Assembly (NCBI GenBank): GCA_014384545.1
Contig: JACNFQ010000033.1
Coordinates: 1-25,464, forward strand
Direction of reading: 5' to 3'
Length of the DNA: 25,464 nucleotides
DNA from: a bacterium
GTDB taxonomy: Bacteria > UBP7 > UBA6624
The position numbers and the translations under genes are program-made. This document shows, in pieces, positions 1,245 through 22,465 of the stretch; position 1 is the stretch's first letter; each line of letters opens with the position of its first letter. Under the pieces are notes generated by a model, which had not been told where the DNA came from, searched no databases, and worked only from the letters and a program-made list of their open reading frames with translations.

Positions 1245-4200
1245 CTACCCAGTTGATCCTCGTCGCGGACGCACTTCGCTCCACCACTTCCACACGACGA
1301 AAATGGAAGGAAAGACAAGGAGAATCATAAGCGTTGTAGTGATAATGCCCCCCACCATGGGTGCTGCGATACGTCGCATCACATCCGACCCCGCACCTGT
1401 TGAGAACATCAAGGGTAACAAGCCCACAAGGGTAACTGTTGAAGTCATAGCGACTGGGCGCACCCTTTGGACGGAACCCTCCATCGCTGCATTCTCCAAG
1501 TCGCCCAGCGTGGTCATCTGTCCTTCCTCCTTCCGTTTTTTGTAGGCAGTCTCTAGGTAAAGGAGCATCACCACGCCCATTTCTGCGGCGAGCCCCGCCA
1601 ACGCAATAATCCCCACCCATACAGCGATAGATAGATTGAACGACATTGCACTCAGTAGATGGAATGCACCCACTAGGGCAAAGGGTATAGATAGCAGGAT
1701 GATGTGAGTAGAAGCAAGGGATTTTGTATTTGTATACAGAAGAATGAAAACGACGAAAAGCGTAATCGGGATAACCACCTGGAGCCGCTTCGTGACCCGC
1801 TCCATCGATTCGTACTGCCCGCTCCAAGTCAAGAATGTCCCCTCAGGAACGAGCCCCGCACCTATCAACTTCTCTTCTACTACCTCCTTGGCTCGTGCCA
1901 CATAACCTCCCAAGTCTGTCCTAGAGAGATCCACATCCACAAAGACATACCCCACCAACCGACCATCTTCATCCTTGATAGCGGGTGGTCCCTTTGTAAA
2001 CCCAATCGTTGCAAGCTGCCCCAAAGGGATCTGTGCACCTGTCGGCGTGGGCACATAGATTTGAGCCAAAGCGGCTGGATCGCTCCGTAACTCACGCATA
2101 TACCTAACATTGATGGCATACCTCTCTCTCCCTTCAACAGTGGTCGTCACATCCATCCCCCCCACAGCTGTCATAATCACATCTTGGACATCCCCCACAG
2201 TCAGTCCATGACGGCTTGCGGCCTCACGGTCTACCTCAATATCCAGATATGTTCCTCCTGTTAGCCTGTCTGCAAAGACACTCCGGGTGCCCTCTAGGGG
2301 GGAGAGTATCGCTTCTAGATGCCCCCCAATCATCTCGATTTCCTCTAGGTCATCCCCATGAATCTTGATACCCACAGGTGTCCGAATGCCCGTTGTCAAC
2401 ATATCAATACGGGTGCGGATGGGGAAGACCCATGCGTTCGTCCATCCAGGAAGATTGACCTTTGCTTCTAGATCTTCAATGATCTCCTCCCAAGTAATGG
2501 GGCGGGATTCAGACCAGACTTTGCCCAATAGACTCTTGACCCACCCTTCCCGCCAACCAGAAAAAAACCGCGGTCTCTTTACCTGCCGCCATTCACTTTC
2601 TGGTTTGAGAGTAATCACAGTCTCAACCATTGAAAGGGGGGCGGGGTCGGTTGATGTTCGTGCCCGACCAGCTTTACCAAAAACCATGGCGACTTCGGGG
2701 ATCTCTTTTATCAACCTATCTTGGGCACGCATCGAGGCGAGTGCTTCACCCACCGAAATCCCCGGAATCGTGGTGGGCATATAGAGTATCGTTCCCTCGT
2801 TCAATGGGGGCATGAACTCGGACCCCAATCCTTTGAAAATAGGAAATGCCGAGGCAACAGCGACTATTGCCAACACCAACACCAGGTATTTACTCTTCAA
2901 CGCCCACTTAGCTAAGGGTGAATAGATTGCCGCAAGAACCCGATTGAAAGGGTTCTTCTTTTCAGGGAGGATCTTCCCCTTTAGGAGGAGTACCATCAGG
3001 GGTGGGGTTACCGTAACGGCTAAGAGTGCAGAAAACGCCATCGCATATGTCTTTGTATACGCAAGAGGTTTGAAGAGTCGCCCTTCTTGCGCTTCTAGAG
3101 TAAATATCGGCAAGAACGATACGGTTATCACCAAGAGGGCAAAGAAGAGAGAGGGGCCCACCTCTTTGGCGGCTTCGATAATGACTTCTTTTCGTTGCAC
3201 AGCTCCGCCTGGGCTCCCTTCTTTTTCCCACACTTCTAACCGTTTATGGGCGTTTTCAACCAAGATAATAGCGGCATCAACCATCACCCCAATCGCAATC
3301 GCAATCCCCCCCAGCGACATAATGTTCGCTGTAAGCCCCTGTGACATCATCGGAATAAACGCCAACAAGACGGCAATGGGAAGGGTCAGGATGATAACGA
3401 GTGCACTCCGAGTGTGGAAGAGGAAAAGGAGACAGACGATGAAGACCACGATAGCTTCTTCAACAAGCGTGTGGTTGAGGGTGTCAACCGAACGCTTGAT
3501 CAGTTCGGCACGGTCGTATGTCGTAACAAGCTCCACCCCAGGAGGAAAGGAGGAGTGCACCTCCTCCAGCCTATCCTTGACCCTCTCAATGACCTTCAAA
3601 GCGTTCTCTCCATACCGCATCACCACAATGCCCCCAACGACCTCCCCCTCGCCATTCAGGTCGGCTACCCCGCGCCTTATTTGAGGACCAAACGAAACGA
3701 CCCCCAAGTCCCCAATGCGAACAGGTGTGCCGTCGGAAGCGATCACGGGGATAGAACGCACATCCTCTAGGTTTTTGATATACCCCAATCCCCGAACCAT
3801 CGCATCTCGTCCTGCAAACTCCAAGATCCGCCCCCCCACATCGTTGTTCGATCGTCTTAGCGCCATCACGACTTTTTGGATAGGAATCCCATACCCTCGC
3901 AGTCGGTCGGGGTCAAGTTGCACTTGATACTGCTTGACCTGTCCCCCCACACTAGCAACCTCTGCTACACCTTGAACCGACTCAAGGGCGTATTTGAGGG
4001 TCCAGTCGTTGAAGGAGCGCAGATCCGCCAAGTCGTTCTGCCCCGTGTTGTCTACCAGAGCATACTCAAAGACCCATCCCACTCCTGTAGCATCTGGCCC
4101 CAAAGTGGGGTTAACCCCTTCGGGCAACGATCCTTGAATCTTGGAGAGGTATTCCAAAACACGGCTTCGCGCCCAGTAGATATCTGTTCCATCCTCAAAA

Positions 4201-4487
4201 ATGACATAGACGAAAGAGAGCCCAAAGAACGAAAAGCCCCTTACGGTTTTCGCTTGGGGAGCCGCCAAGAGAGAGGAGACGATGGGATAGGTCACTTGAT
4301 CCTCCATAATCCCTGGAGATTGCCCCTTCCATTCGGTAAAGACGATCACCTGAGGATCTGAAAGGTCGGGGATCGCATCCAAGGGAATCGCTCGAAACGC
4401 ATACCACCCCGATGCGACCGCGATACCCGTTAGTAAGAAGACAAGGAACGGGTTCCTTGCCGAAAACTCAATCAGTTTGGCAATCAT
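1245..4487 (-). CDS. cusA: Cu(I)/Ag(I) RND efflux pump inner-membrane subunit, CusA type
   Basis: At 1080 residues it is close to full length for a heavy-metal RND transporter, the proton-driven pump that moves metal from periplasm or membrane into the outer-membrane channel. TM4 carries GIAIAIGVMVDAAIILVEN with the proton-relay Asp at 404. The three methionines known to bind Cu/Ag in E. coli CusA (M573, M623, M672) have equivalents in the same motifs: M570 (LYMPTT), M620 (APLSMVET) and M696 (RIDMLTTGI). This favours Cu/Ag over the Zn/Co CzcA type. Relative to E. coli CusA there is an extra segment of roughly 27 residues around 636-665, before PITWEEIIEDL. The start codon overlaps the cusB stop as TGATG, showing translational coupling. 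A short broken copy of residues 98-136 lies upstream of the operon at 7680-7794. Confidence 0.95.
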   Translation of the reverse strand: MIAKLIEFSARNPFLVFLLTGIAVASGWYAFRAIPLDAIPDLSDPQVIVFTEWKGQSPGIMEDQVTYPIVSSLLAAPQAKTVRGFSFFGLSFVYVIFEDGTDIYWARSRVLEYLSKIQGSLPEGVNPTLGPDATGVGWVFEYALVDNTGQNDLADLRSFNDWTLKYALESVQGVAEVASVGGQVKQYQVQLDPDRLRGYGIPIQKVVMALRRSNNDVGGRILEFAGRDAMVRGLGYIKNLEDVRSIPVIASDGTPVRIGDLGVVSFGPQIRRGVADLNGEGEVVGGIVVMRYGENALKVIERVKDRLEEVHSSFPPGVELVTTYDRAELIKRSVDTLNHTLVEEAIVVFIVCLLFLFHTRSALVIILTLPIAVLLAFIPMMSQGLTANIMSLGGIAIAIGVMVDAAIILVENAHKRLEVWEKEGSPGGAVQRKEVIIEAAKEVGPSLFFALLVITVSFLPIFTLEAQEGRLFKPLAYTKTYAMAFSALLAVTVTPPLMVLLLKGKILPEKKNPFNRVLAAIYSPLAKWALKSKYLVLVLAIVAVASAFPIFKGLGSEFMPPLNEGTILYMPTTIPGISVGEALASMRAQDRLIKEIPEVAMVFGKAGRARTSTDPAPLSMVETVITLKPESEWRQVKRPRFFSGWREGWVKSLLGKVWSESRPITWEEIIEDLEAKVNLPGWTNAWVFPIRTRIDMLTTGIRTPVGIKIHGDDLEEIEMIGGHLEAILSPLEGTRSVFADRLTGGTYLDIEVDREAASRHGLTVGDVQDVIMTAVGGMDVTTTVEGRERYAINVRYMRELRSDPAALAQIYVPTPTGAQIPLGQLATIGFTKGPPAIKDEDGRLVGYVFVDVDLSRTDLGGYVARAKEVVEEKLIGAGLVPEGTFLTWSGQYESMERVTKRLQVVIPITLFVVFILLYTNTKSLASTHIILLSIPFALVGAFHLLSAMSFNLSIAVWVGIIALAGLAAEMGVVMLLYLETAYKKRKEEGQMTTLGDLENAAMEGSVQRVRPVAMTSTVTLVGLLPLMFSTGAGSDVMRRIAAPMVGGIITTTLMILLVFPSIFVVWKWWSEVRPRRGSTG

Positions 4488-5947
4488 CAGTGTTGGTGCC
4501 CCCCCATACCGGGTGCGACCGATTGCATTGATCTTTCGGAGTCTAGCAGGAAGGCAGCGCGAGAAACGACCATCTCCCCCCCTACAAGCCCTGACAAAAC
4601 CTCATACTTTTCTCCATAAACACCCCCCAGCGTTAGGAGGGTGGGTTGATAAACACCGACCTTGACTTGAACGAAGGCGATATCCCTTTCCCCCGTGCGA
4701 ATCACCGCATTGAGAGGAACCCAAACGCCTGCCCGTTCTGGCCCCTCAATCAAGGCTGACGCATACATGCCAGGTCTGAGAACACCATGGGGGTTGGGGA
4801 GCTCGATTCTTGCTTTCGTCGTCCTCGTTATGCCATTGACTGTAGGGTGAATGAACGAAACGACACCCTCAATGGGTGCCCCCGGTAGATGGTCCAGCGA
4901 GACAGTCGCCTTAGCCCCTAACTTGACCCGAGCCAAATCCCCTTCATAAATCTCGGCCTGGACCCAAACAGTGGCGAGATCTGCCAACGAGAAGAGCGTC
5001 ATTCCAGGGGTAATACGCATGCCCTCTTGGGCGTGGAGCGTCAAGACGACCCCACTGGCAGGGGCAGGAATGATGATGCGTTCCTGAACCTCTCTCGTTT
5101 GGACGAGGGATTCAATAAAACCCTGTGGAACCCCCCAAAGCCTTAGGCGCTCTTTGGCTGCAGCGACCATCGCACCACTCCCCCTCACCAAGTCGGGGTT
5201 CCCCGATTGGGCACTTTCGTCTTGAGCTTTTAGGGCAATGAGGACTTCCTTTTGGGTTGCTAGGACTTCGGGGGAGTAGATAGCGATAAGGGGCTGGCCC
5301 TCTTGAACCGAAGAACCCGTCTCGTTGACAAATACCGTTTCTACCCATCCAGAGAACCTCGTCTGTACTTTGTGCAGGGTTCTTTCGTCAGGATACACCA
5401 CCCCCACAGTAACCACCTCAGAAACCAATAGCCCCCTCGTTACTTTTTCGGTTCGTATCCCGATCGCTTGCCTTATTTCAGGAGCGACAGAGATCGTGGG
5501 CAATCCACCCATCTCCATCCCCTCTTGTTCCGATAGGGCAGAGGATTCGTCACCTCCACCCATATCCATCCCAGGCGTATGCCCTTCATGGGATTCGTCA
5601 CCCCCTCCCATATCCATCCCGGGGGTATGCCCTTCGTGGGATTCGTCACCTCCACCCATATCCATCCCAGGGGTATGGTCGTGGTCCATCCCCTCCATCT
5701 CCTCCATTCCTTCGTGGGATTCGTCACCTCCACCCATCTCCATCCCGGGCGTATGCCCTTCATGGGATTCATCACCTCCGCCCATATCCATCCCCTCATG
5801 TTCCGTTGGGGCAGGGGTTCCACCCCCTGCCAAGGCACCCTCGTTGGGCACAGCGATCGGTTTTTCCTCACCTTTGCAGGCACCCAATAGTGCCACCACA
5901 ACGAGGAATCCCACCCCTTTCCACACCTTTATTCTGTCGTTTTTCAT
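4487..5947 (-). CDS. cusB: CusB-type periplasmic adaptor lipoprotein with Met/His-rich repeat domain
   Basis: This 486-residue membrane-fusion protein would link the RND pump to the outer-membrane channel. A signal peptide ends in the lipobox LLGAC with the lipidated Cys at 24. Residues about 49-149 are a low-complexity domain built on MDMGGGDESHEGHTPG, with 15 Met and 10 His. The conserved adaptor core follows, with CusB-like motifs such as RFSGWVETVFVNETG and GQPLIAIYSPEVLATQKE, a barrel-sandwich hybrid domain and beta-barrel regions. E. coli CusB binds Cu/Ag through three N-terminal methionines. The repeat domain here is a much enlarged counterpart and may gather Cu(I) or Ag(I) in the periplasm; that is inference. 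The ATG overlaps the cusC stop as ATGA. The C-terminus ends in GMGGHQH, adding further potential ligands. Confidence 0.93.
   Translation of the reverse strand: MKNDRIKVWKGVGFLVVVALLGACKGEEKPIAVPNEGALAGGGTPAPTEHEGMDMGGGDESHEGHTPGMEMGGGDESHEGMEEMEGMDHDHTPGMDMGGGDESHEGHTPGMDMGGGDESHEGHTPGMDMGGGDESSALSEQEGMEMGGLPTISVAPEIRQAIGIRTEKVTRGLLVSEVVTVGVVYPDERTLHKVQTRFSGWVETVFVNETGSSVQEGQPLIAIYSPEVLATQKEVLIALKAQDESAQSGNPDLVRGSGAMVAAAKERLRLWGVPQGFIESLVQTREVQERIIIPAPASGVVLTLHAQEGMRITPGMTLFSLADLATVWVQAEIYEGDLARVKLGAKATVSLDHLPGAPIEGVVSFIHPTVNGITRTTKARIELPNPHGVLRPGMYASALIEGPERAGVWVPLNAVIRTGERDIAFVQVKVGVYQPTLLTLGGVYGEKYEVLSGLVGGEMVVSRAAFLLDSERSMQSVAPGMGGHQH
5501..5803 (-). repeat. 48-bp tandem repeat encoding a Met/His metal-binding domain in cusB
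   Basis: The unit MDMGGGDESHEGHTPG (16 residues, 48 bp) recurs with register distances of 16, 26, 16 and 16 residues. There are five M[DE]MGGGDES cores, at residues 53, 69, 95, 111 and 127, and a degenerate sixth (MEMGG) at 144. The 26-residue step contains an insert, EGMEEMEGMDHDH. The DNA copies are nearly identical, which suggests recent expansion by slippage or unequal crossover, and copy number may vary between strains. On the opposite strand the repeat creates an artefactual open frame. Confidence 0.9.
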
Positions 5948-7233
5948 TCGTTTACCTCTCTATAAAATCTTGGGTGCGTAGGCGATAACGCCCGCCCCAC
6001 CAATCGCTCTAGGCTTGCTATTGCAGCCCCCCAATCCTTGACTCTTTCTGCTCGCCCAATCTCAAACTCTTCCCACTTCAATAGATGGTCTAAAACCATC
6101 AGAATATCTGTTTTGCCCCCTTCGTACGAAGCGACAACAGCCCAATAGGCACTCTCTGCCTGCGGCACGAATCCCTCATCAAAGAGGGTGATCAAGTCAA
6201 GGGCAGCCTCCCCCTTTGCTAACTCCTGTGCCACCTGGGCAAGAAGAGTCCTTTCCAGCCCAGCAAGTGTTGCTTCTGCCTGTCTAACTCCTGCTTCGGC
6301 TTCTAATACGGCTTCGTCTTGCCTTTGCTCTGTCCGTGATGCCAAAGACCACCCCACTTGGGCTTGGAGAATCGGGTCAAGCCCCCCCCTGTTCCAATAC
6401 CCAAACCCCATCTGCATCGTGGGTCCATACGATGCCAGCGCCAAGTCCCTCTTCGCTTGCGCCATCTCCACATCTTGCTCCCCGAGTGCGTATTGTGCGT
6501 TCCCTCCTCTTACACCCTTCGCTATCTCCTCTGCTAGAAGTTCCCTCTGCAAATAAGGAACAACCCCCACAAAAATGGGGGTGTCTGCGGGACGGTCTCT
6601 AAGGGCGTTTAGCCCTGCCAATACCGTCTCTCTTTTAGCTATAACCAACCGCAATCTTGCACTTTGGGATGAGATTGCTAGCTGGATACGGAGGATGTCG
6701 CTTTGGGCACCCTTGCCCGAAGCATACCGTGCCTCTACCATCGCTAGAAGAGTGATTAGGGTCGATTTCTTTTCGCGAACGATCCTTAGCGTCTCGTCCA
6801 CCACTGCGAGTTCATATAACCCCCTAATCGCTTTTTCTCGCAGAGCATGAGAGAACACCTCTACCCTGCCCATAGAGAGAGCTACCGTGCGGTTTGCAAC
6901 CTCTCCTTTTCCTGCCAGAACGTCGGCATGGGGCATCATCTGGGTATAGAGAACCCCCATCGAGCTCATCATTTCGTCTCCCACCGTGAAATCATCCAAG
7001 CTCACATTCCGTAGCCCTACCATCAAGGTGGGATCGGGCCAGGCAGTGACTTGGGGGTAACGATGGGTAGTCCCCTCGGCTCCTTCGCGTAGAGATTGCA
7101 AAGCTGGGTTGCGCATCTCTATTTCCTCTAGGAACCTCTCCACACCTCCCCCCAACAAATCACCACTGCCAGCACCCACTAAGACAAGAGCAATGAGAAG
7201 TTGCCCCGCAAACCGAACAGACATCCTGAACAT
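5944..7233 (-). CDS. cusC: TolC-family outer-membrane efflux channel of the Cus pump
   Basis: The product is 429 residues from the start chosen here. An ATG 63 bp further upstream is in frame, but the ATG at 7233 has AGGAGG 7 nt before it and is followed directly by a signal peptide (MFRMSVRFAGQLLIALVLVGAG), so it is preferred. The mature part is rich in Ala/Glu/Leu/Arg helices in two similar halves, as in outer-membrane efflux proteins: one around DILRIQLAISSQSARLRLV and a second around AEAGVRQAEATLAGLERT. It would form the trimeric outer-membrane and periplasmic tunnel for the CusA/CusB complex. Several methionines occur early in the mature chain (GDEMMSSMGVLYTQMMPH), which may suit a copper substrate. 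No lipobox is seen, unlike many CusC proteins. The assignment to Cus rests on its operon partners. Confidence 0.88.
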   Translation of the reverse strand: MFRMSVRFAGQLLIALVLVGAGSGDLLGGGVERFLEEIEMRNPALQSLREGAEGTTHRYPQVTAWPDPTLMVGLRNVSLDDFTVGDEMMSSMGVLYTQMMPHADVLAGKGEVANRTVALSMGRVEVFSHALREKAIRGLYELAVVDETLRIVREKKSTLITLLAMVEARYASGKGAQSDILRIQLAISSQSARLRLVIAKRETVLAGLNALRDRPADTPIFVGVVPYLQRELLAEEIAKGVRGGNAQYALGEQDVEMAQAKRDLALASYGPTMQMGFGYWNRGGLDPILQAQVGWSLASRTEQRQDEAVLEAEAGVRQAEATLAGLERTLLAQVAQELAKGEAALDLITLFDEGFVPQAESAYWAVVASYEGGKTDILMVLDHLLKWEEFEIGRAERVKDWGAAIASLERLVGRALSPTHPRFYREVNE

Positions 7234-7310
7234 AAACGACCTCCTTGGGGCACAGCCCCATTCAAAGAAAAAACAAGGGAATGGTCCGAAGACCAAGAAA
7301 AGGAGTAGGT

Positions 7311-9959: not shown

Positions 9960-11255
9960 TTATGCTCTCCAAAGGCGCAGGGGGTCTCCCCTCCATTCAG
10001 GAAAGAGAGTTTGGCTATCTTCAATACCTAGGTGGCGATTGGCGACTTCAGAAAAAACCTCCCTAAAGTCGGTCGTTACAGGCAAGTCCCTGCCGTCCTC
10101 AAGATTGTCCTTATGGAGCGTAGGAACCGTTCCGTGAACCTGTCCTCCATCAACCCCATTACCCAAAAGGAAGAGACAGGATCCTCGGCCGTGGTCGGTG
10201 CCACCCGTCCCGTTTTCGGCTACGGTGCGTCCAAACTCGGTCATAGTCAGAACAACGACCTCATCACGCCTCCCAGCCATATCCGCCCAGAAAGCAGCGA
10301 TAGATTGAGCTAAATCCCCCCCGCGTTGGGCAAATGTCCCATTCGTTGTCCCTTGCTGAACATGGGTATCCCACCCCCCCGTTTCGGCGACTGCCACTTC
10401 GAGCCCTACACCCCCCTTGATAAGTTGAGCAATCTGCTTGAGAGCATTCCCCAATGGCGAGTTGGGGTAATCGGCACCCTCCACTGGTTGGTAGGGTTCG
10501 TGCCGTAGAGCATCTAATGCTTCCAAAGCCTCAAAAGTGCTTTCACCAGTCTCGCGCATGAGGTCTTGGCTGGTCTCAGCATATAGCGATTCGAAACTAC
10601 TACCCGACATCGCCCCCAAGTTCCCCAAACCAACACCTAGCCCGAAATCTGCAAGGTTGTTGATCGCTAGGGCGGATCTTTCTCCATACAAGGAGCGAGG
10701 AAGCCCGCCCCCCATAGAAACGGCTTGGAAAGGGGTTGCTTCATGCCCCAAGAGACCCACAGCCCTGTTTAGCCACCCATCGGGGGTTCCTTTGACTCCT
10801 GGGGTTCCCGTCTCCATATAATCTTGCGCGTCAAAGTGCGAACGCGTCGTATCGGGGCTTCCTACCCCATGGACGATGGCGAGTCGTCCTTCATCCCATG
10901 ATTCACGCAAGGGAGCAAACGAAGGGTGTAAGCCAAACCCTACCCCCAAATCGCCCACTTGACTCTCTGCACCTCTGGAAGCTGACATCCCCAAGCGAGG
11001 GCGGAGTTTGGAGAGATAAGGGTCGTCCAATGGGGGGACTGCCATGAGCCCATCCATCGCCCCCCTCTGAAAAATCGTAACGAGCGTCTTCTTCTTGCCA
11101 AAGGGTGCAACCTCTGCCGCACCTAGGGCGGTGCGACCCAAGAAGAGAGGGCTTCCACCCACCCCCAAAGAGAAAAGGGCAATCCCCCCCGCCTTTACGA
11201 ACGCGCGCCTTGTCAGGCGACCCTCTTGATTGTCATCCATCCTATGATTAGTCAT
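9960..11255 (-). CDS. DUF1501 protein with Tat signal
   Basis: The product is 431 residues from the ATG at 11255, which follows AAAGGAGG at good distance. An in-frame ATG 87 bp further upstream lacks support and lies inside the DUF1800 gene. Residues 14-24 (LTRRAFVKAGG) form a twin-arginine signal, followed by a hydrophobic stretch, so the folded protein should be exported. DUF1501 belongs to the alkaline phosphatase/sulfatase-like fold superfamily. Recognisable family segments are TLVTIFQRGAMDGL, SHFDAQDYMETG, AETGGWDTHVQQG and VVLTMTEFGRTVAENG. The biochemical role is unknown. DUF1501 is very often paired with DUF1800, as here, where only 2 nt separate the two genes. Confidence 0.93.
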   Translation of the reverse strand: MTNHRMDDNQEGRLTRRAFVKAGGIALFSLGVGGSPLFLGRTALGAAEVAPFGKKKTLVTIFQRGAMDGLMAVPPLDDPYLSKLRPRLGMSASRGAESQVGDLGVGFGLHPSFAPLRESWDEGRLAIVHGVGSPDTTRSHFDAQDYMETGTPGVKGTPDGWLNRAVGLLGHEATPFQAVSMGGGLPRSLYGERSALAINNLADFGLGVGLGNLGAMSGSSFESLYAETSQDLMRETGESTFEALEALDALRHEPYQPVEGADYPNSPLGNALKQIAQLIKGGVGLEVAVAETGGWDTHVQQGTTNGTFAQRGGDLAQSIAAFWADMAGRRDEVVVLTMTEFGRTVAENGTGGTDHGRGSCLFLLGNGVDGGQVHGTVPTLHKDNLEDGRDLPVTTDFREVFSEVANRHLGIEDSQTLFPEWRGDPLRLWRA

Positions 11256-11257
11256 CT

Positions 11258-13282
11258 TTACCTCCTTTGGAACTCGGGCGAACCCAGCAATACGCCCACA
11301 ACCTGGGCCAAGACCTTTGGATTGTTCACGGGGTGATCCCAATCTACCGTTTGCTCGTTCTCTCTCCTTTCGGACATCCCGCCACCCCTTGACATCCCTC
11401 CACCCATTGAACTCGTTCCACTTGCATAAGTGGAATCGGGTGTGGCACTCTCCACTTTTTGGGCGAAGTCTGGGTCGGCTACCACGGGCGCTAAAAGGGC
11501 TAAAGTATCGGTCAAATCACGCCCGTCCAAGATGTGCCCTGCATAAACCTCTAACGCATGCTCAATGCTCTCTGGTTCATGAAAAACACCCCCAAAGGTG
11601 TTCAGCCCCCTTAGATCAAATCGCACCCCACGAATACGCCCCATTGCTAGATTCAACCCAAAGTTCATCCGTGAAAGCAACGAACCGGCATTGACCCAAG
11701 CGTCTGCCCTGTCGGGATACCCTGTTGGAGCTTCGTATCTGTAGAGGGGCTGTCCCATTCTCTCCACCCATTGAAGAGACGCACGGGGGAGTGTCATTTG
11801 CACATCAAGAGCCCTGAGTGCAGAAGCGACAACCTCGAAAGGAGACTTGATCTTAGAGCGCACCGAACTTACCGACCAAAACTCGTCGCTCCAAAAAAGC
11901 ACCTTCATGACTTCTCTTAGGTCTCCGCCTGTTTCTGAGAATCGAGTTGCCATCGCATCAACCAAACGATCGGATGGTGTGTCAGAAACGAACCGAATAG
12001 CGAGCTTCTTAGAGATAAAACGAGCCGTCCATGGGCTACTTACCAATAGATCCATGACCCGTTCGCCCTCTTCTACACCGCCACCCGCAGGAAAGGTATT
12101 GCCCATAATCAACTTGCCATCCGCATCATGCATGTCCGCACGGAAAAGAAACCCCTCTTGGGCAACGAATCCCAAAGATTCTGCTTGTTCTAGAGTTGCT
12201 GAAAGCTCTGGGTGGTCATCTCTTTCCATCATCCCGCCCATATCTTCCCCCATCATCCCGCCCATCTGGCGGTCGTCGTTCATCTCTCCCATTCCTAACC
12301 GAGAAGCGACTTCGGGGGGGAGAAAAGTCCACCCTGTAAATGCCCTTGCAACCTCTTCTACATCCCCTTGGGAATACCCCAATGGCTGATTGAATGCTTC
12401 TACACCCAATGTGTGGAGTTCCATGATTTCCCGAGCGTAGTTCTCGTTGAGCCCCCTCCTGCCCCTGCCCATCCCCCTAGGCATATCTCTTTGAGAACGG
12501 CCACTTTCTGCCAACGCCATCTGGGCTGTAGTATGAGCCCCCTGCTCTGCATTCGACATCGCATTATCTAAGTAAAGCAACATCGCTGGGTGCTTCGCTG
12601 TTGCACCCAACATCTCGCGGAAGTTCCCCAATACATAGGGACGAATCGCTTCTAACTCGTAGTTCACTACATAGGGTCGTGCTTGGTTCTTTGAGACAGT
12701 GATGTTGAAATGGTTGAACCAAAAATCAGCCAAGACCTCCTCTAACTGGTTCTCTGAATAGACCGCACGCACCAACTTATGAGCCATCAACTCGCCCGTG
12801 AGTTCGTTTTGCGAGCGAATACCATATGTCTCCATATACTCTGCACGAATCTGGTTGATTTCTTGATTAGTAAGGTCATCTTGCTCGGCTTGGGTGATGA
12901 TGCCGTTCTGGCGTGCCCAAGCCAATGCCCGATTCGTTACCACCCCGGGATTGGGGTAGGTGCGGGTTATCTCTACAATGGAAAGATCTAGGGTGCGGAA
13001 GGGCTCAAGAGCGTCCTCCAGTTCCCCATCAGGAATCTCACCCCCCAATTGGGCTTCGAACCAAGCTTCTGGCCCCATTGCCAAGACTGTAGCAATATCC
13101 CCTGGGCGGGGTCCGAACGCAAACCGATCCAGTAAATGACGGGCAGTTTCCTCTTCTGTTAGCCCACTGGTCTCCCACGGGTATGGACTCGTTTCTGGTG
13201 TTTGAACCTGAATCGAAACCCCACGGCTGCCCCCTGCTGCTAAGAGTGTGGCAACTGTCGCCATCCAAAAGATCTTCTTCAT
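11258..13282 (-). CDS. DUF1800 exported protein with Met-rich inserts
   Basis: This 674-residue protein has an N-terminal signal (MKKIFWMATVATLLAAGGS). It shows typical DUF1800 segments: ARHLLDRFAFGPRPGD near 47-62, VLADFWFNHFNITVSK near 183-198, HPAMLLYLDN near 231-240, NENYAREIMELHTLGV near 279-294 and EVARAFTGWTF near 310-320. The family has no established biochemical function and usually accompanies DUF1501. Two low-complexity Met-rich segments stand out: residues 331-352 with eight Met (GMGEMNDDRQMGGMMG and following), and 626-636 (MGGGMSRGGGM). These resemble copper-binding Met motifs and recall the MGGGDES units of CusB. AAGGAG precedes the ATG. It is the first gene of the minus-strand operon and diverges from the EF-hand operon. 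Confidence 0.92.
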   Translation of the reverse strand: MKKIFWMATVATLLAAGGSRGVSIQVQTPETSPYPWETSGLTEEETARHLLDRFAFGPRPGDIATVLAMGPEAWFEAQLGGEIPDGELEDALEPFRTLDLSIVEITRTYPNPGVVTNRALAWARQNGIITQAEQDDLTNQEINQIRAEYMETYGIRSQNELTGELMAHKLVRAVYSENQLEEVLADFWFNHFNITVSKNQARPYVVNYELEAIRPYVLGNFREMLGATAKHPAMLLYLDNAMSNAEQGAHTTAQMALAESGRSQRDMPRGMGRGRRGLNENYAREIMELHTLGVEAFNQPLGYSQGDVEEVARAFTGWTFLPPEVASRLGMGEMNDDRQMGGMMGEDMGGMMERDDHPELSATLEQAESLGFVAQEGFLFRADMHDADGKLIMGNTFPAGGGVEEGERVMDLLVSSPWTARFISKKLAIRFVSDTPSDRLVDAMATRFSETGGDLREVMKVLFWSDEFWSVSSVRSKIKSPFEVVASALRALDVQMTLPRASLQWVERMGQPLYRYEAPTGYPDRADAWVNAGSLLSRMNFGLNLAMGRIRGVRFDLRGLNTFGGVFHEPESIEHALEVYAGHILDGRDLTDTLALLAPVVADPDFAQKVESATPDSTYASGTSSMGGGMSRGGGMSERRENEQTVDWDHPVNNPKVLAQVVGVLLGSPEFQRR

Positions 13283-13484
13283 TCTCTGTTTCTCCTTTTC
13301 TTGTTCAAACCTACTCTATACCCGAATCAGGCAACTCTGTTTCCCGATAGGTGAGTCTACCAAGACTTACCCACCCTCACCAACGGAACTTTTCCATCGT
13401 AGGGGTGATAATGGGGTTGAGAGACGAATAGAACAACAAGCGAACAGACTCGTTTTTCAGATTTGGTATTGGAGGTTTGTGATT
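13283..13484. promoter_or_regulatory. Divergent intergenic region between the DUF1800 and EF-hand operons
   Basis: These 202 bp separate two divergent start codons and must hold both promoters. I found no convincing -35/-10 pair or palindromic operator. TATAGA at 13315-13320 (minus) is a possible -10, but no -35 fits it. Both flanking genes have Shine-Dalgarno sites, unlike most first genes here. Confidence 0.4.
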
Positions 13485-15026
13485 ATGTATCAATACAATA
13501 AAAAAGGTTTTGGCGTCCTATTGGGGCTTTTCTTTCTGCTGGGTGTCCTACTCCCTGCCCAAGGAGGGCAACGGGGAGAGAAGAAGAGCGTTTCGTCTTG
13601 GATCAAGAAGAACGACACCAACGAGGACGGCAAAGTCTGTCCTGATGAATCCGACTTGCCTGCCGAGATCTTTGATCGGCTGGATCAAGACGGTGACGGC
13701 TGTTTCAATGCCGAAGAGGCAGGAGCTTCCAAAGGCGGCCCCCAAAGAGATAGACAAAGGAACATGCTCTCTGGGTTAGACAAGGATGGCGACGGTAAAG
13801 TCTGTTTGGAGGACTTACCCAATGACCGGCCCGAAATGGTTGAACGAGGGAAAGAGATGCTTGCTCGACACGACAAGGATGGCGATGGATGTTTGTCGGG
13901 GGATGAGATACCCCAGGGTGGCTCCAATCCGGGTGGGAATCGGAACCTATGGTCCATGCTCGTTCCCCTAGATAGGAACGGAGATGGACTTGTTTGTCGG
14001 GATGAAGTCCCCCTCTATGACATGCGCGCAACGGGGCGCATCGGTGAACTCTATATTGAATATTTGGATGTGGGCGATATCAATAACGACAACTGCTTGG
14101 AAGAGAGTGAAGTCAACATCCCCTTAGAAGAAAGGGCGCAGTGGGAACATCTTAGCCGAATGGACATGAATGGAGATGGTTTGGTATGTACCGATGAGAT
14201 GCCCCTTACAGACAGAGGCTCGGAAAACCCCCAATCTCTCATACAAAGACTTGATAAGAATGGAGACGGGTGTCTCTCCGAAGATGAAGCCGCCCTACCC
14301 CCTACACCCCAAAGTCCGTGGGCAAGAATCTCCACCATGGACCTCAATGGAGATGGGCTCGTATGTAGGGACGAAGTGCCTGATGTTCTCTTTGGCGAGG
14401 GGGGTCGGTTTGGGAGGGGGCAAGATGCCCCCCCAAGATCCGCAGACCAAGGAAGACGGGGCGAAGGGCAAGGGAGAGGGTCGTTTGGGCGGCCACCAGA
14501 ACCCCCCTCCCCTGAAATGGAGTTCAACGCGATGTTGCGGTCTTTTGATCACGATGGCGACCGATGTCTCTCCGAAAGTGAGATTCCCCAAGGTCCAGTA
14601 GGTGGAGGTATCAGTTGGTCTCACTTTGAGAGGATGGACACGAACAAAGATGGGCTCGTTTGTATGGATGAGTGGGCGGCAATCTCTGATGGGTTTCAAG
14701 GTCGCCCCCAGCAAGAAGGTAGGGGGGGACTCCAAGGGAACCCTCAGGGTGGAAGACCTGAAAGAGGAAGGAGGCCTGATTTTGGACAGATTCTAGAGAA
14801 GTTGGACTTGAATGGCGACCGTTGTATTGAGGAATCGGAAATCCCCACCCCACCCCAACAGGGGCAGGGAAACAGGAAGCCAAGAGGCGCTAACTTTGTG
14901 GAGAGGTTTGATGCGAATGGGGACGGTGCCGTTAGCCCCGACGAGTTTGATGGTCCAGAAGATGTCTTTGCCAAACTTGATCAAAACGGCGATGGTCTCA
15001 TTGATCACGCAGATCTTGACCACTAG
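13485..15026 (+). CDS. Exported EF-hand repeat protein with Cys-paired calcium loops
   Basis: The ATG at 13485 follows GGAGG by 9 nt and opens a signal peptide (MYQYNKKGFGVLLGLFFLLGV), so the longer upstream frame is not used. The 513-residue product holds 14 EF-hand loops, including DTNEDGKVCPDE, DQDGDGCFNAEE, DRNGDGLVCRDE, DKNGDGCLSEDE and DANGDGAVSPDE. Nearly all keep Asp1, Asp/Asn3, Asp5 and Glu12, so calcium binding is very likely. All 12 cysteines (52, 73, 107, 136, 171, 204, 235, 263, 294, 361, 393, 447) sit in loops, alternating between loop positions 9 and 7. The last two loops have none. Gly/Pro/Arg/Gln-rich linkers separate pairs at about 301-345 and 401-433. It is likely periplasmic or secreted. 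No enzymatic domain is seen. Confidence 0.9.
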   Translation: MYQYNKKGFGVLLGLFFLLGVLLPAQGGQRGEKKSVSSWIKKNDTNEDGKVCPDESDLPAEIFDRLDQDGDGCFNAEEAGASKGGPQRDRQRNMLSGLDKDGDGKVCLEDLPNDRPEMVERGKEMLARHDKDGDGCLSGDEIPQGGSNPGGNRNLWSMLVPLDRNGDGLVCRDEVPLYDMRATGRIGELYIEYLDVGDINNDNCLEESEVNIPLEERAQWEHLSRMDMNGDGLVCTDEMPLTDRGSENPQSLIQRLDKNGDGCLSEDEAALPPTPQSPWARISTMDLNGDGLVCRDEVPDVLFGEGGRFGRGQDAPPRSADQGRRGEGQGRGSFGRPPEPPSPEMEFNAMLRSFDHDGDRCLSESEIPQGPVGGGISWSHFERMDTNKDGLVCMDEWAAISDGFQGRPQQEGRGGLQGNPQGGRPERGRRPDFGQILEKLDLNGDRCIEESEIPTPPQQGQGNRKPRGANFVERFDANGDGAVSPDEFDGPEDVFAKLDQNGDGLIDHADLDH

Positions 15027-15067: not shown

Positions 15068-16345
15068 ATGTCAACGAGCGTTTTTTCGAAGCTAACATTC
15101 GTGGTTCTCTTGATCGTTTCGTTCTGGGTAGGACGACTCTGGGAACAACGCCATTCCCCTTCCATTTCAACAACGACCAGCACCACCCAACCGATCAACC
15201 CTGTTGCCCTCCCCTCTGTTCAATCAGAATCTGTTCCCCTTGAAGTCCTTACCTTAGTAGAGACGCCCCCTATTGAAGAGAAGCCCCAGAAAGAGTGCTA
15301 CCCCCCACCCCCAGCTCCCGGAGACTGGGCATGGAATCAATTTGTCCTACTGGACAGGAATGGGGATTGTGTCGTTACCTTAGACGAACACCTTGATCAC
15401 ATCGAGTTTGCTCGCTTGGATCGGGACGAAAATGGATCGGTCTCTCTGGTTGAAGTGGAGTTTGAAGTTTTCGTCACCCATATTGATCACAACCTAGATG
15501 ATGAGGTGAGTTCTGGTGAGTTGGGGACCAGTTGGCAACCCGCTGATGCCGCAGCCTTTGTAGCCGTTGTTGATATTGACTTGGATGGGCGTATTTCCTT
15601 TGATGAATATCGGTTTCGGTTGGAGATACTTAGAGAGGGCGATTCCAGATATTGGACCTTGGCACATGCTCAAGAGGACGTCTTTTTTGAACGGCACGGT
15701 TTGGGCAACCAAGGGGTTCACGTGGCTCAGATCCGCTTTTCCCTAGCCTCTTCGTTGGATAGTGATGGGAATGGTGTCCTTTCGAGACATGAGTACCGCG
15801 GACGCCTTGCTCAGTCGTGGGACATTGCTGAGCCCCTACGCACCCTTGATAGATGGATGGCAAGGGATGAGTTTTTGGAGGCTGGGGTTGGGGGTTGGAT
15901 CTTTATCCCTATGGACAGGAATGGAGATGGTGGTGTAGAGAGGAGTGAAGTAAGAGACTACATTGCACGGAAAATATCTGGTCATGGGAAACTTCCCGAA
16001 GTGGGGCTTTTTCTGTTGTTTGATAGTAACCACTCGGGATTCTTGGAGTTTGAAGAGTTCCAACCCGATTCTCTGGATTGGTTGTTGGGCTTTGATGTGG
16101 ATGGGAATGGCATACTAAGTTGGGGCGAGTCGGAACTCTTCTTGACCCCTTGGGCACGAAAAGATGCCATAGAATGGGGTAAGGACTTTGGTTCATTTTT
16201 CCCCTCTCTGGACGGGGATGGAAATGGAACGCTCTCACGGATTGAATCGGGGCTGAACAATCCTTTCTTTGACAGCGTGGACGAAAATGAAGATGGTGAA
16301 CTCTCGCTTAGTGAAATAGCGGCAGCAAACAAGAACGATTACTAG
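15068..16345 (+). CDS. Membrane-anchored EF-hand protein, paralog A
   Basis: The 425-residue protein has an N-terminal hydrophobic segment (residues about 8-22) that may be a signal anchor or uncleaved signal. A Thr/Ser/Pro-rich linker to about residue 75 follows, then roughly ten EF-hand loops, starting at about 96, 118, 140, 169, 231, 283, 319, 343, 382 and 405. The only two cysteines are C77, in CYPPPPAPGD, and C101, at loop position 6 of DRNGDCVVTLDE, where Gly is normally found. The downstream neighbour has the same architecture and cysteine pair, so the two are tandem paralogs. It starts 41 nt after the first EF-hand gene with an AGGGGG stretch before the ATG, so the genes are probably cotranscribed. 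A calcium-responsive or structural role outside the cytoplasm is inferred. Confidence 0.88.
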   Translation: MSTSVFSKLTFVVLLIVSFWVGRLWEQRHSPSISTTTSTTQPINPVALPSVQSESVPLEVLTLVETPPIEEKPQKECYPPPPAPGDWAWNQFVLLDRNGDCVVTLDEHLDHIEFARLDRDENGSVSLVEVEFEVFVTHIDHNLDDEVSSGELGTSWQPADAAAFVAVVDIDLDGRISFDEYRFRLEILREGDSRYWTLAHAQEDVFFERHGLGNQGVHVAQIRFSLASSLDSDGNGVLSRHEYRGRLAQSWDIAEPLRTLDRWMARDEFLEAGVGGWIFIPMDRNGDGGVERSEVRDYIARKISGHGKLPEVGLFLLFDSNHSGFLEFEEFQPDSLDWLLGFDVDGNGILSWGESELFLTPWARKDAIEWGKDFGSFFPSLDGDGNGTLSRIESGLNNPFFDSVDENEDGELSLSEIAAANKNDY

Positions 16346-16368: not shown

Positions 16369-17616
16369 ATGAAGGTATTCAAGAATATTCTGTCTGTCTT
16401 TGGGGGATTGGTTCTATTCTATATGCTCCTCTCCTTATTGGAGGAGAAAGAAGCACTCACGCCAGCAACCCCAAACCCTATGGGTATCAAGGGTGCCGCG
16501 GAACCCCCTATTACCCCGCCCACCCCAGCCCCACTGTTGGTGGGCACTGTCTGTTCCCCCGCCCTACCTGGGGATGACGAAGGGCGCACTGAAGCGCGCG
16601 CCCAGTTCCATGCATGGGATCGCAATGGCGACTGCCAGATTACTCAAGATGAACATCCAGACAGAATGCTCTTTGCAGAATCTGACAGAGATGAGGATGG
16701 TTACCTTTCAGTAAACGAAATCCACTACGAGGGGATGGTTACTTTCCTTGATAACAACAATGATGATACGGTAAGTAAAGGAGAGCTTTCTGCGATCTTT
16801 GCAGGCCCCGAAGCCGACGCTATTTTTGGATTGCTGGATGCCGACATGGATGGTCGCATCTCCTTCTGGGAGTTTGACCTTTTTCAAGTTACCAACGACC
16901 AAGCATGGGGGAAGGATCCACCCACAAGCTTTACACAAACGAACGCTCTCTTTGATGGGGACAGTAATGGTGATAACTTGCTTTCTGCCTCGGAATTACC
17001 TTTGGGCTCGGAAGCCCTTCAACTGGACAAGAATGGCGATGGTCTTTCTAGAAGCGAGTACTTGGAGAGGTATGTAGTGGCACTTCTTCCCATGTTCTTG
17101 GAACACTTTAGAGAGGCTGATGAAGATGGCGATGGCGAACTGACATCATGGGAATTGACCGCTGCAGGTAATGACGATGCGGAGTTTGCCATGATGGAAA
17201 CGAATGGTGATGGGGTGGTGGTTGTTGACGAACTAAGGGATTTCATCTTACGTATTGTCACAGGTGCCGGTAGCCTCCCTGAACGCACTTGGTTCATCCT
17301 GATGGATTCGGATCGCTCTGGGCATGTTGACCTTTTTGAGATTCCTGGTGAAGAAGGACAGGAAGGATTCCCCTATCTAGATCTCGATGGAAATGGGGTT
17401 TTGTCTTGGGAAGAGTTTGAGGTTGGTCTTCGCCCCATAGCGCGTAGCGACGCACTGAGAGATGGAGGCTTGGTTTACCATTTTGGGACACTTGATGCGG
17501 ATCGTGATGGGGTGCTTTCGTTTGAAGAAACGGGTGCTGAAAAGCCTGCTTTTGTGGAGGCAGACAAAGACGGGAGTGGCTCGTTGACGATCGGCGAACT
17601 CCTCCCCAAATCCTAG
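16369..17616 (+). CDS. Membrane-anchored EF-hand protein, paralog B
   Basis: This 415-residue tandem paralog of the preceding gene has an N-terminal hydrophobic anchor (residues about 6-24), a Thr/Pro/Ala-rich linker and about twelve EF-hand loops. The first is DRNGDCQITQDE, again with Cys (C89) at loop position 6. The only other cysteine is C62 in CSPALPGDD. Shared blocks with paralog A include the DRNGDC-x-x-T-x-DEH motif, the D-x-x-x-DGRISF loop and W-E-F-type helices. One loop at about residue 220 (DKNGDGLSRSE) is one residue short, and one at 277 begins with Glu, so not all sites need bind calcium. GGAGG precedes the ATG; the gap to paralog A is 23 nt. It ends the EF-hand operon and is followed by the intergenic repeat. 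Confidence 0.88.
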   Translation: MKVFKNILSVFGGLVLFYMLLSLLEEKEALTPATPNPMGIKGAAEPPITPPTPAPLLVGTVCSPALPGDDEGRTEARAQFHAWDRNGDCQITQDEHPDRMLFAESDRDEDGYLSVNEIHYEGMVTFLDNNNDDTVSKGELSAIFAGPEADAIFGLLDADMDGRISFWEFDLFQVTNDQAWGKDPPTSFTQTNALFDGDSNGDNLLSASELPLGSEALQLDKNGDGLSRSEYLERYVVALLPMFLEHFREADEDGDGELTSWELTAAGNDDAEFAMMETNGDGVVVVDELRDFILRIVTGAGSLPERTWFILMDSDRSGHVDLFEIPGEEGQEGFPYLDLDGNGVLSWEEFEVGLRPIARSDALRDGGLVYHFGTLDADRDGVLSFEETGAEKPAFVEADKDGSGSLTIGELLPKS

Positions 17617-19736: not shown

Positions 19737-21914
19737 TTAGATCTTTGCCTTTTGAAGGCGAAGGCTGTTCGCAATGACGATGATATCGCTTGCCGCCATC
19801 GCTGCTTGGGCCACTGCAGGGTGGAGGATACCGATAAATGCCAAGGGGATTGCAATTAGGTTATAAGCACCCGCCCAAGCGAGATTTTGCCCCACGATAC
19901 GGAATGTCACCCGGCTTAGATTGACCGCACGCACAAGGGCGCGAAGGTCGCCTTGAGCCAGAATAAGGTCGCCTGCTTCTTTTGCCAAATCCGTTCCTGT
20001 CCCCATCGCAACCCCTACATGAGAAGCTGCCAAGGCAGGGGCATCGTTTAGCCCATCTCCGGCGAAGACAGAGAGGCGTCCCTCTCTCTCTAGTTTTTTG
20101 ACAAGGGCGACCTTTTCTTCAGGGCGCATCGCTCCGTGCCACTCGCTGATACCGGCAGCCTCGGCAGCCCGACGCACAACCTCTGGGCGATCGCCACTGG
20201 CAACGATCACCTCTAAACCCATCTCTTGGAGTGTGCCGACTGTCTCCTCAGCCTCTTCTCGCAAGATATCCTCCAACCCCATCACGCCTAGGAGTTGTCC
20301 TCCCTTTTGGATACCGACAGCACTCTGTTGGGGGGGGAGGGAATCGGCTAAAGACTCTGCTTCCTTCCCCAACCACTTGGGGCGACCGACCCGTAGCTGT
20401 ACTCCATCCAGCATAGCTTCCATACCCTCACCCGCTATCGCTTGGAACGCCTTTGCAGTTGGAACCTTTAGCCCTTCTTTGGCTCCGTGGCGAAGAATCG
20501 CTCTGGCGAGGGGATGTTCGCTACCCGCCTCTACCGCCATGGCCATTGTAAGGACGCTCTTTTTGTCGATACCATCGGCGGGAAGGACTGCACCCACTTG
20601 GGGACGACCAAGGGTAAGTGTACCCGTCTTGTCGATAATGAGGGTCTTGCAGTCTTTTAGGGCTTGGATACCACGGCCTTCTCTGATGATGACACCTGCT
20701 CTGGCGCCTCTACCTGCCCCTACAAATAGTGCAAGGGGTGTGGCGATGCCCAGAGGGCAAGGACAAGAAACAACGAGAACCGCCAACGAAACCAACCACC
20801 ACGCCATGGGGTCAGGAGAAAGCCCCAAGGGATCGGCTAGAGTACTACGAATCGTCGCCATACTCTCGGGGGCAAGAGCCCAGAGGAGTGCTGCTCCTGC
20901 AGCGAACGCGAGGACTATGGGAACGAAAACCGCGACGATACGGTCGGCTAATCCTTGGATAGGCACACGCGTGGCACTTGCTTCGCCCACCATCCTTGCC
21001 AGTTGAGACAAATAGCCATCTGCACCCGATGACTCCACCCTAATAATCAGACACCCCGATCCGTTTTGGGTACCCCCAATCACTTTGTCACCGACGATTC
21101 GTCGAACCGGGAGGGACTCGCCTGTTACCAGAGATTCATCTACCTCCCCCTCGCCATCAATCACCTCTCCATCCAATGGAATCGTCCCACCAGGCAAGAC
21201 GACAACGATATCTCCCACCCCAATCTCTTCTAGGGGAGTCTCTCTCTCTTCGCCCGAGGATGACCTGACCACAGCCAAAGGGGGGGAGAGTTCTAGAAGC
21301 CCCTTGACGGCACGGTCGGCACGACCCTTGAGCAACTCTTCAAGATACTGCCCACTTATATAGATAGCAAATAGGAGCAGGCCTTCCCGCCCCATTCCAT
21401 CAAGGGGGGTCCCTTTTATCGTGGAGATAACAGCAACGGCGTGATGTCCAACAGCCCCCGTAATCCCGATACCAATAAGCGTTTCCATATTGAAGTTTCG
21501 GGTGCGTAGTGTCGTCCAAAACTCAGCCAATAGATCCCTTCCCGCAACGCCCAAGACAACGAGCAGTGTCCCCATCACGCCCAAATCCCCAAAGGGGACA
21601 GAGTGGCGGAAGGCTACAAAGCCTAGGAGGGCACCCACCCACGCCACAGCCATCTGGAAATGAGGGTTCTTTATCTGGGGGTGGTCATGGGGTGCAGAGG
21701 GGCTCGCTACAGGATCGTGCCACGAATACCCTGCCTTGGCAACCGCACGGGCAATCGCTTCCTTTTCCACCTCACCATGAACGACCGCATCCCCCGAAAC
21801 CCCGCTAATGAGGACATCTTCTACCCCAGGAAGAGCACAGATTACTTTTTTAGCCGCTGCAGCACATGCGCTACAGCTCAGCCCTGCAATCTTCCCACGG
21901 AGTGTCGGCGTCAA
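19737..21914 (-). CDS. copA: Cu(I)-exporting P1B-type ATPase
   Basis: At 725 residues it has one N-terminal heavy-metal domain (GLSCSAC, C14 and C17), the actuator TGES at 264-267, the membrane CPC motif (C384-P-C386), the phosphorylated D428 in DKTGT, the HP motif in SEHPLA near 466-469 and GDGLNDAP at 619-626. Late-membrane motifs YN (685-686) and M706 with S709 match Cu(I) ATPases. The residue corresponding to the second Ser of the usual MxxSS motif is Asp (D710), which is unusual. It pumps Cu(I) from cytosol to periplasm, feeding the Cus system. The start is TTG directly after the copZ TAA, with AAGGAAG upstream. It is the third gene of the csoR-copZ-copA operon and so should be induced by copper. 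Confidence 0.95.
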   Translation of the reverse strand: MTPTLRGKIAGLSCSACAAAAKKVICALPGVEDVLISGVSGDAVVHGEVEKEAIARAVAKAGYSWHDPVASPSAPHDHPQIKNPHFQMAVAWVGALLGFVAFRHSVPFGDLGVMGTLLVVLGVAGRDLLAEFWTTLRTRNFNMETLIGIGITGAVGHHAVAVISTIKGTPLDGMGREGLLLFAIYISGQYLEELLKGRADRAVKGLLELSPPLAVVRSSSGEERETPLEEIGVGDIVVVLPGGTIPLDGEVIDGEGEVDESLVTGESLPVRRIVGDKVIGGTQNGSGCLIIRVESSGADGYLSQLARMVGEASATRVPIQGLADRIVAVFVPIVLAFAAGAALLWALAPESMATIRSTLADPLGLSPDPMAWWLVSLAVLVVSCPCPLGIATPLALFVGAGRGARAGVIIREGRGIQALKDCKTLIIDKTGTLTLGRPQVGAVLPADGIDKKSVLTMAMAVEAGSEHPLARAILRHGAKEGLKVPTAKAFQAIAGEGMEAMLDGVQLRVGRPKWLGKEAESLADSLPPQQSAVGIQKGGQLLGVMGLEDILREEAEETVGTLQEMGLEVIVASGDRPEVVRRAAEAAGISEWHGAMRPEEKVALVKKLEREGRLSVFAGDGLNDAPALAASHVGVAMGTGTDLAKEAGDLILAQGDLRALVRAVNLSRVTFRIVGQNLAWAGAYNLIAIPLAFIGILHPAVAQAAMAASDIIVIANSLRLQKAKI

Positions 21915-22142
21915 TTAGGCTTCCTTCGTAATGACCATAAACCCAGCGTCGTCAATCGCTGCGGCAATGTCGGGGAGGTTGCTGGGGCAACCGCATGTAA
22001 ATGTAACAGACCCAGCATCGGTATCTGCTTCAATATCCGACGAACAATCACAGGCACCCAAGATCGCATCTCTAACCTTGGAGGCACACCCCCCACAAGA
22101 CATTCCCTCTACGCGTATCGTCACTCTATCTCCCTTTTCCAT
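21915..22142 (-). CDS. copZ: CopZ-like copper chaperone with extra CxC motifs
   Basis: The product is 75 residues from the ATG at 22142, which lies 8 nt after AAGGAGG. A GTG three codons upstream overlaps that site and is rejected. It is a single heavy-metal-associated domain with MSCGGC (C16, C19), which binds Cu(I) and hands it to CopA. Unlike ordinary CopZ it has four more cysteines in two CxC motifs, C31/C33 (GACDCSS) and C50/C52 (TCGCPS), placed in the first helix end and the following strand. These could add binding capacity or form a second site, or a disulfide. It sits between csoR (14 nt gap) and copA (stop and start directly adjacent). Confidence 0.92.
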   Translation of the reverse strand: MEKGDRVTIRVEGMSCGGCASKVRDAILGACDCSSDIEADTDAGSVTFTCGCPSNLPDIAAAIDDAGFMVITKEA

Positions 22143-22156
22143 ATCTCTCACCTCCT

Positions 22157-22465
22157 TTATTTTACGAACCGACGGACCGTTTCTGCAAACTCTTTGATTC
22201 GGGCTGAAGCCAAATCAGGATCATCCGAACGAATCGCCTCTGTGCAGCACGTCTCTAAGTGGTTTTCCATCAAGAGGACTGCCACCGAATCCAACGCTGA
22301 ACGCGCCGCGTGAATCTGATTCAAAACATCCACACAGTAAGAACGCTCTTGAATCAACCGCTGAACCCCGCCCACTTGCCCCTTTACCCGAGCCAAACTT
22401 CGTAAAGCTTGCCCCTGAAGAGGCGTCAAAGAATCCGTCTGTTCGCAACACGGTTTATTATCCAT
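22157..22465 (-). CDS. csoR: CsoR-family copper-sensing repressor
   Basis: This 102-residue, all-helical protein belongs to the CsoR/RcnR/FrmR family. The copper ligands of M. tuberculosis CsoR (C36, H61, C65) have exact spacing equivalents here: C44 (SYCVDVL), H69 and C73 (ENHLETC). The Tyr before the first Cys is also kept. Two further cysteines (C6, C7) lie in a short N-terminal extension and one (C74) follows the third ligand. It should repress the csoR-copZ-copA operon by binding the palindrome at 22475-22491 and release it on Cu(I) binding. The ATG has no Shine-Dalgarno site. TATAAT ends 6 nt upstream, so the mRNA is probably leaderless. Confidence 0.95.
   Translation of the reverse strand: MDNKPCCEQTDSLTPLQGQALRSLARVKGQVGGVQRLIQERSYCVDVLNQIHAARSALDSVAVLLMENHLETCCTEAIRSDDPDLASARIKEFAETVRRFVK

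Follow-up and report, generated by a model that had tools for sequence, protein, structure and literature searches.

Introduction

Loops of the EF-hand superfamily comprise 12 residues, with Ca2+ ligands at positions 1, 3, 5 and 12 and a hydrophobic residue at position 8. The hydrogen bonds of the strand pair in EF-hand pairs join position 8 of one loop to position 8 of the other (8'). Thrombospondin type 3 repeats are extracellular, and their tandem DxDxDG Ca2+ sites are linked by disulfides. Two hydrogen bonds join the EF-hand strand pair (PMC4196763). The Excalibur domain (PF05901) has a single EF-like loop, DxDxDGxxCE, in which the cysteine at position 9 forms a disulfide to a short upstream helix and Ca2+ is still bound; its authors suggested that this bridge substitutes for the missing larger EF-hand framework (PMC5137146). 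Secretagogin, NCS-1 and other animal EF-hand proteins can also form disulfides (PMC5094748, PMC8623652).

The window analysed in this study is a stretch of 25,464 nucleotides from a bacterial contig, which contains a gene for a protein with 14 EF-hand loops, referred to here as the array. Like canonical EF-hand pairs (calmodulin lobe, parvalbumin; Pfam EF-hand_1/5/7), it has the loop D-x-[DN]-x-D-x-x-hydrophobic-x-x-x-E and is predicted to join odd with even loops by way of a short strand pair around position 8. Unlike them, it has cysteines at position 9 of the first loop and position 7 of the second (Cys9/Cys7') in six pairs, exit helices that are short and stop near proline, seven tandem pairs and low-complexity inserts, and is likely exported. 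Excalibur and the array both have a cysteine at position 9 of a DxDxDG loop, but Excalibur has Glu at position 10 and a cysteine in the upstream helix, whereas the array has Glu or Asp at position 12 and, as presumed partner, Cys7 of the next loop. The resemblance to thrombospondin type 3 repeats is one of principle only: their cysteines lie outside positions 7 and 9, and they have neither EF-hand helices nor a strand pair. Secretagogin, NCS-1 and the other animal proteins are cytosolic and have no repeated 9/7 pattern; the disulfides of secretagogin destabilise the fold, and some link monomers.

Characteristics of the EF-hand array gene

The features of the array gene, in coordinates of the window, were as follows.

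13471..13475 (+): GGAGG ribosome-binding site, 9 nt before the ATG of the array gene (sequence only)
13485..15026 (+): EF-hand array gene, 513 aa, 12 Cys, 14 EF-hand loops (translation; Pfam EF-hand_1 114 bits, EF-hand_7 95 bits)
13485..13565 (+): likely Sec signal peptide MYQYNKKGFGVLLGLFFLLGVLLPAQG of the array protein (sequence pattern; predicted helix 8-21 in the low-confidence full-length model)
13614..13649 (+): loop 1, DTNEDGKVCPDE, Cys9
13683..13718 (+): loop 2, DQDGDGCFNAEE, Cys7
13779..13814 (+): loop 3, DKDGDGKVCLED, Cys9
13872..13907 (+): loop 4, DKDGDGCLSGDE, Cys7
13971..14006 (+): loop 5, DRNGDGLVCRDE, Cys9; modelled strand at positions 7-9
14076..14111 (+): loop 6, DINNDNCLEESE, Cys7; modelled strand at positions 7-9
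14163..14198 (+): loop 7, DMNGDGLVCTDE, Cys9; modelled strand at positions 7-9
14253..14288 (+): loop 8, DKNGDGCLSEDE, Cys7; modelled strand at positions 7-9
14340..14375 (+): loop 9, DLNGDGLVCRDE, Cys9
14376..14546 (+): insert between loops 9 and 10, 57 aa, Gly/Arg/Gln/Pro-rich
14547..14582 (+): loop 10, DHDGDRCLSESE, Cys7
14637..14672 (+): loop 11, DTNKDGLVCMDE, Cys9
14673..14804 (+): insert between loops 11 and 12, 44 aa, Gly/Gln/Arg-rich
14805..14840 (+): loop 12, DLNGDRCIEESE, Cys7
14910..14945 (+): loop 13, DANGDGAVSPDE, no Cys (Ser9)
14979..15014 (+): loop 14, DQNGDGLIDHAD, no Cys

The protein matched Pfam EF-hand_1 with an E value of 4.3e-34. Its loops start at amino acids 44, 67, 99, 130, 163, 198, 227, 257, 286, 355, 385, 441, 476 and 499, have the length, ligand positions and hydrophobic residue of the EF-hand superfamily, and all 14 carry the Ca2+ ligands D1, D/N3, D5 and E/D12. 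The array protein is a member of this superfamily and not an Excalibur domain. Position 10 of the Cys9 loops is occupied by P, L, R, T, R and M in place of the Excalibur Glu, and all 12 cysteines lie inside loops, none in a helix preceding one, although the whole-protein score against PF05901 (31.4 bits) exceeded the cut-off of 22.

The original prediction placed all twelve cysteines inside loops 1-12, at position 9 of odd and position 7 of even loops. The translation bore this out, with 12 of 12 cysteines in loops and none outside, Cys9 in the six odd loops from 1 to 11 and Cys7 in the six even loops from 2 to 12. Loss of one cysteine of a pair with retention of the other, which if regular in homologs was named there as evidence against the proposal, was seen in none of the array's own loop pairs; the last pair (loops 13/14) lacks both. 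The protein had also been treated as exported and, as its N-terminus resembles a Sec signal peptide, export is likely.

Two other family models were compared. The XopAW-type effector model NF041410 gave 136.2 bits against a cut-off of 120, summed over five EF-hand stretches, which probably reflects a general resemblance among EF-hands; with its Sec-like N-terminus, the protein is unlikely to be a type III effector. The score against lanmodulin (NF053806) was 36.5 bits, under the cut-off of 135, and proline was found at loop position 2 in none of the 14 loops.

Divergence of the repeats and constancy of the cysteines

The array units were about 33-38% identical to the first unit, loop DNA was 58-66% identical among loops, and the codon differed in 61% (odd loops) and 55% (even loops) of the cases in which loops share an amino acid. 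The repeats are old, derived from one ancestral pair by duplication, and not recent copies. The cysteine columns were constant in both classes (6/6 in odd and in even loops), as constant as the Ca2+-ligand residues Asp1 and Asp5, and the normally fixed Gly6 was replaced by N, R and R in three of the six even loops. Because units, loop DNA and codons have diverged strongly, neither chance nor recent copying accounts for the cysteine pattern; given the common ancestry of the repeats, this constancy cannot be expressed as a simple probability. A paired function, for example a disulfide, would predict such joint retention of both cysteines in each pair.

Loop pairing and cross-strand geometry

Linkers from odd to even loops were of 11, 19, 23, 18, 57, 44 and 11 aa, and those from even to odd loops, more regular, of 20, 21, 17, 17, 18 and 23 aa. 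Linker lengths alone leave the choice of loop partners ambiguous, and loops 5-8 were therefore modelled with AlphaFold2, using the other array repeats as alignment (three repeat sequences). The model had a pLDDT of 64.6 (71-79 around the loops) and a pTM of 0.39, and in each of the four loops it placed a strand of three residues that covers exactly positions 7-9. Model residues 67-127 (loops 7 and 8) aligned with the C-lobe pair of calmodulin and residues 1-70 (loops 5 and 6) with the EF pair of CRACR2a, both with Z of 5-6 and rmsd of about 3.5 Å, where a Z under 8 may mean a common arrangement only. Together with the EF-hand sequence match, the fold of loops 5-8 is expected to be that of EF-hands. 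The predicted odd-even pairing, with strands centred on residue 8, was thus recovered, at moderate confidence, for pairs 5/6 and 7/8, the two pairs that the model covers. A full-length AlphaFold2 model without alignment was too poor to use (pLDDT 40.7); at low confidence it connects loops 1 and 2 through their residues 8, and also bridges loops 4/5 and 10/11. The aromatic-cluster rule for odd and even hands (PMC4196763), read off the array sequence, gave no discrimination.

With hydrogen bonds between 8 and 8', the flanking pair 7-9' is non-hydrogen-bonded. In a simple backbone calculation on an idealised strand pair with these bonds, the C-beta distance of 7-9' was 4.1-6.9 Å (10-90%; median 5.6 Å) and that of 9-9' was 9.4-11.1 Å. 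The claim that this geometry favours a disulfide is therefore matched to the extent that 7-9' lies within reach and 9-9' does not, which is compatible with a bond but no proof of it. On account of the modelled strands at positions 7-9 and the alignment to solved EF-hand pairs, Cys9 and Cys7' of the array pairs would be expected to lie next to each other across the strands.

Proline occurs within four residues past position 12 in 11 of the 14 loops, and the modelled exit helices of loops 5-8 are three residues long where formed; for these reasons the usual EF-hand helix packing appears to be reduced in the array pairs.

A proposed disulfide-stapled array

The array is probably an exported protein that binds Ca2+ and contains a disulfide in every pair from 1 to 6 (loops 1/2 to 11/12), six in total. 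Seven EF-hand pairs in tandem would make up an exported, multi-domain protein in which Cys9 of the first loop opposes Cys7 of the second across the short antiparallel strand pair, and one disulfide would be formed per pair in pairs 1-6. This staple would grip both loops where early prolines shorten the helices leaving them, and each stapled pair would thereby be kept folded and Ca2+-competent outside the cell. By analogy with Excalibur, each pair may be held by one bridge across its loops. What the analysis shows is the pattern in the sequence, its constancy and, for loops 5-8, the predicted odd-even pairing; that the protein is exported, forms disulfides, is occupied by Ca2+ and has a structural role instead of one in signalling is our inference.

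If the disulfides form, they would be a natural lock for EF-hand pairs at the sole contact point of the two loops, and a second disulfide solution, beside Excalibur, for folded EF-like Ca2+ sites outside cells; Cys9/Cys7' would then also be a ready design rule for stabilising EF-hand sensors. The reach of the pattern is limited so far, since a single protein in a single incomplete genome shows it.

The genome of the array (79% complete) encodes a short VKOR-like protein (about 118-130 aa; contig C97, about 1377-1770), which is common to two genera (also present in G002). It has both cysteine motifs, a CxxC (CQAC) and a loop cysteine (CVLES...), and its match of 21.7 bits is below the family cut-off of 27.5; it is possibly a minimal periplasmic disulfide oxidase. 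DsbB was not found in this genome.

Alternative explanations

Disulfides that join even loops to the following odd loops (2/3, 4/5 ... 10/11), with Cys9 of loop 1 and Cys7 of loop 12 left over or joined to each other, are considered unlikely. Such an arrangement would suit the uniform even-to-odd linkers (17-23 aa), the long low-complexity inserts in two of the odd-to-even linkers and the 4/5 and 10/11 bridges of the low-confidence full-length model, and positions 7 and 9 face each other under either pairing. However, two cysteines, as well as loops 1 and 14, would then have no partner; the better model pairs 5/6 and 7/8, and units 1/2 and 13/14 have the short linker of 11 aa that also occurs in other bacterial EF-hand pairs. 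That the cysteines are an inherited repeat motif with no bonding role would fit the duplication of units from one ancestral pair, but silent sites and flanks have diverged strongly and yet all 12 cysteines were kept, which renders this highly improbable.

The remaining alternatives concern the state of the thiols. Binding of a soft metal such as Cu(I) by free thiols, with one two-thiolate site per loop pair within a copper-handling island, is quite unlikely: the window does contain a CusA-type pump, a CusB-like adaptor with Met/His repeats, a Cu-type P-ATPase and a CsoR-type repressor, and a P-type ATPase lies near the DUF1800 gene in same-family genomes as well, but the copper genes are separate units kilobases from the array, His (6) and Met (14) residues are scarce in the array, close unprotected thiols are expected to oxidise outside the cytoplasm, and the canonical Ca2+ ligands are kept. 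Copper-thiolate binding, which the original prediction had offered as an alternative, thus agrees with the gene neighbourhood but has no direct support. Redox-sensitive Ca2+ binding had been suggested too, and reversible disulfides at positions 7 and 9, within the Ca2+ loops, could change binding on opening. The array gene has no linked redox partner or regulator, though, a permanent staple is the likelier outcome with external Ca2+ in an oxidising environment, and the comparable bridge of Excalibur is structural (PMC5137146); nothing favours a switch over a permanent staple, and a redox-controlled Ca2+ affinity is regarded as very unlikely. Little probability was likewise given to a broader proposal, a new EF-hand architecture in which the 9-7' disulfide would replace helix packing and its opening and closing would tune Ca2+ binding at up to fourteen sites in response to extracellular redox conditions.

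Searches for relatives and distribution of the pattern

The original prediction had proposed a search for alternating Cys9/Cys7 loops. A DNA pattern of Cys9 followed by the start of a Cys7 loop 14-24 residues later was scanned against about 1,000 genomes (386 diverse, 294 of the phylum of G386 (Planctomycetota), 193 of the phylum of G030 and 148 of the phylum of G025). The array gene was the sole EF-hand match, no second EF-hand protein with a Cys9...Cys7 pair being found in these genomes; the pattern catches three of the six array pairs (1/2, 3/4 and 7/8), and diverged or longer-linker cases could be missed. The other matches were rejected as EF-hands, being Cys-rich repeats (phylum of G030; L005/L006) or a chance match with an in-frame stop. 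Cys9...Cys7 EF-hand pairs were absent from 51 viral loci, no close relative of the array appeared when six short peptides were searched for in 84,980 species genomes, and viral contigs, plasmids and phages gave generic EF-hands or nothing. No orthologue was found, and same-family genomes are without the gene. The statement that no described family has this pattern thus stands as far as searched, but Excalibur already offers a Ca2+ loop whose position-9 cysteine is tied by a disulfide (PMC5137146).

Among 99 genomes from the phylum of G386, none had strict Cys9 loops, and the few strict Cys7 loops were mostly in FG-GAP-like DxDGDG repeats. Lone Cys7 EF-hands were detected once in this phylum (L112) and once in Desulfovibrio (L004); they are not orthologues of the array and are therefore no test of cysteine pairing. 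A dockerin-like module with a cysteine at loop position 7 (L107) was observed in a genome of the phylum of G386.

Gene neighbourhood and synteny

The neighbouring genes were as follows.

9960..11342 (-): DUF1501 protein with a twin-arginine-like RRAFVKAGG motif; synteny kept in G001/G002
11258..13282 (-): DUF1800 protein, divergently transcribed neighbour of the array gene; synteny kept in G001/G002
15068..16345 (+): second EF-hand protein, 41 nt downstream of the array gene
16369..17616 (+): third EF-hand protein; relatives in G001 and G002

The genes for the P-type ATPase, DUF1800, DUF1501, an M28 peptidase and the third EF-hand protein keep their synteny in G001 and G002. Since the array gene is missing from this otherwise syntenic region in both genomes, together with the second EF-hand gene, the array looks either specific to its genus or lost in the other genus. 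No established function of DUF1501/DUF1800 pairs was found in the literature (PMC5122149).

In each of the second and third EF-hand proteins, two cysteines follow the hydrophobic N-terminus: the first precedes all EF-hands, and the other occupies position 6 in the first loop. This arrangement is common to relatives in two same-family genomes of another genus (L068, L071), which have one further cysteine, and may represent a disulfide from helix to loop, as in Excalibur, within a complete EF-hand protein.

Copper-type efflux genes flank the EF-hand cluster on both sides (1245-7296 and 19737-22465, both on the minus strand), and include CusA/B-like, outer-membrane-factor-like, Cu P-ATPase and CsoR-type repressor genes. 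The N-terminal part of the CusB-like adaptor (4487-5947, minus strand) contains repeated Met/His-rich segments, HTPGMDMGGGDESHEG, which are probably a metal-binding tail. A YD-repeat (Rhs-like) fragment is located at the window edge (232-537, plus strand).
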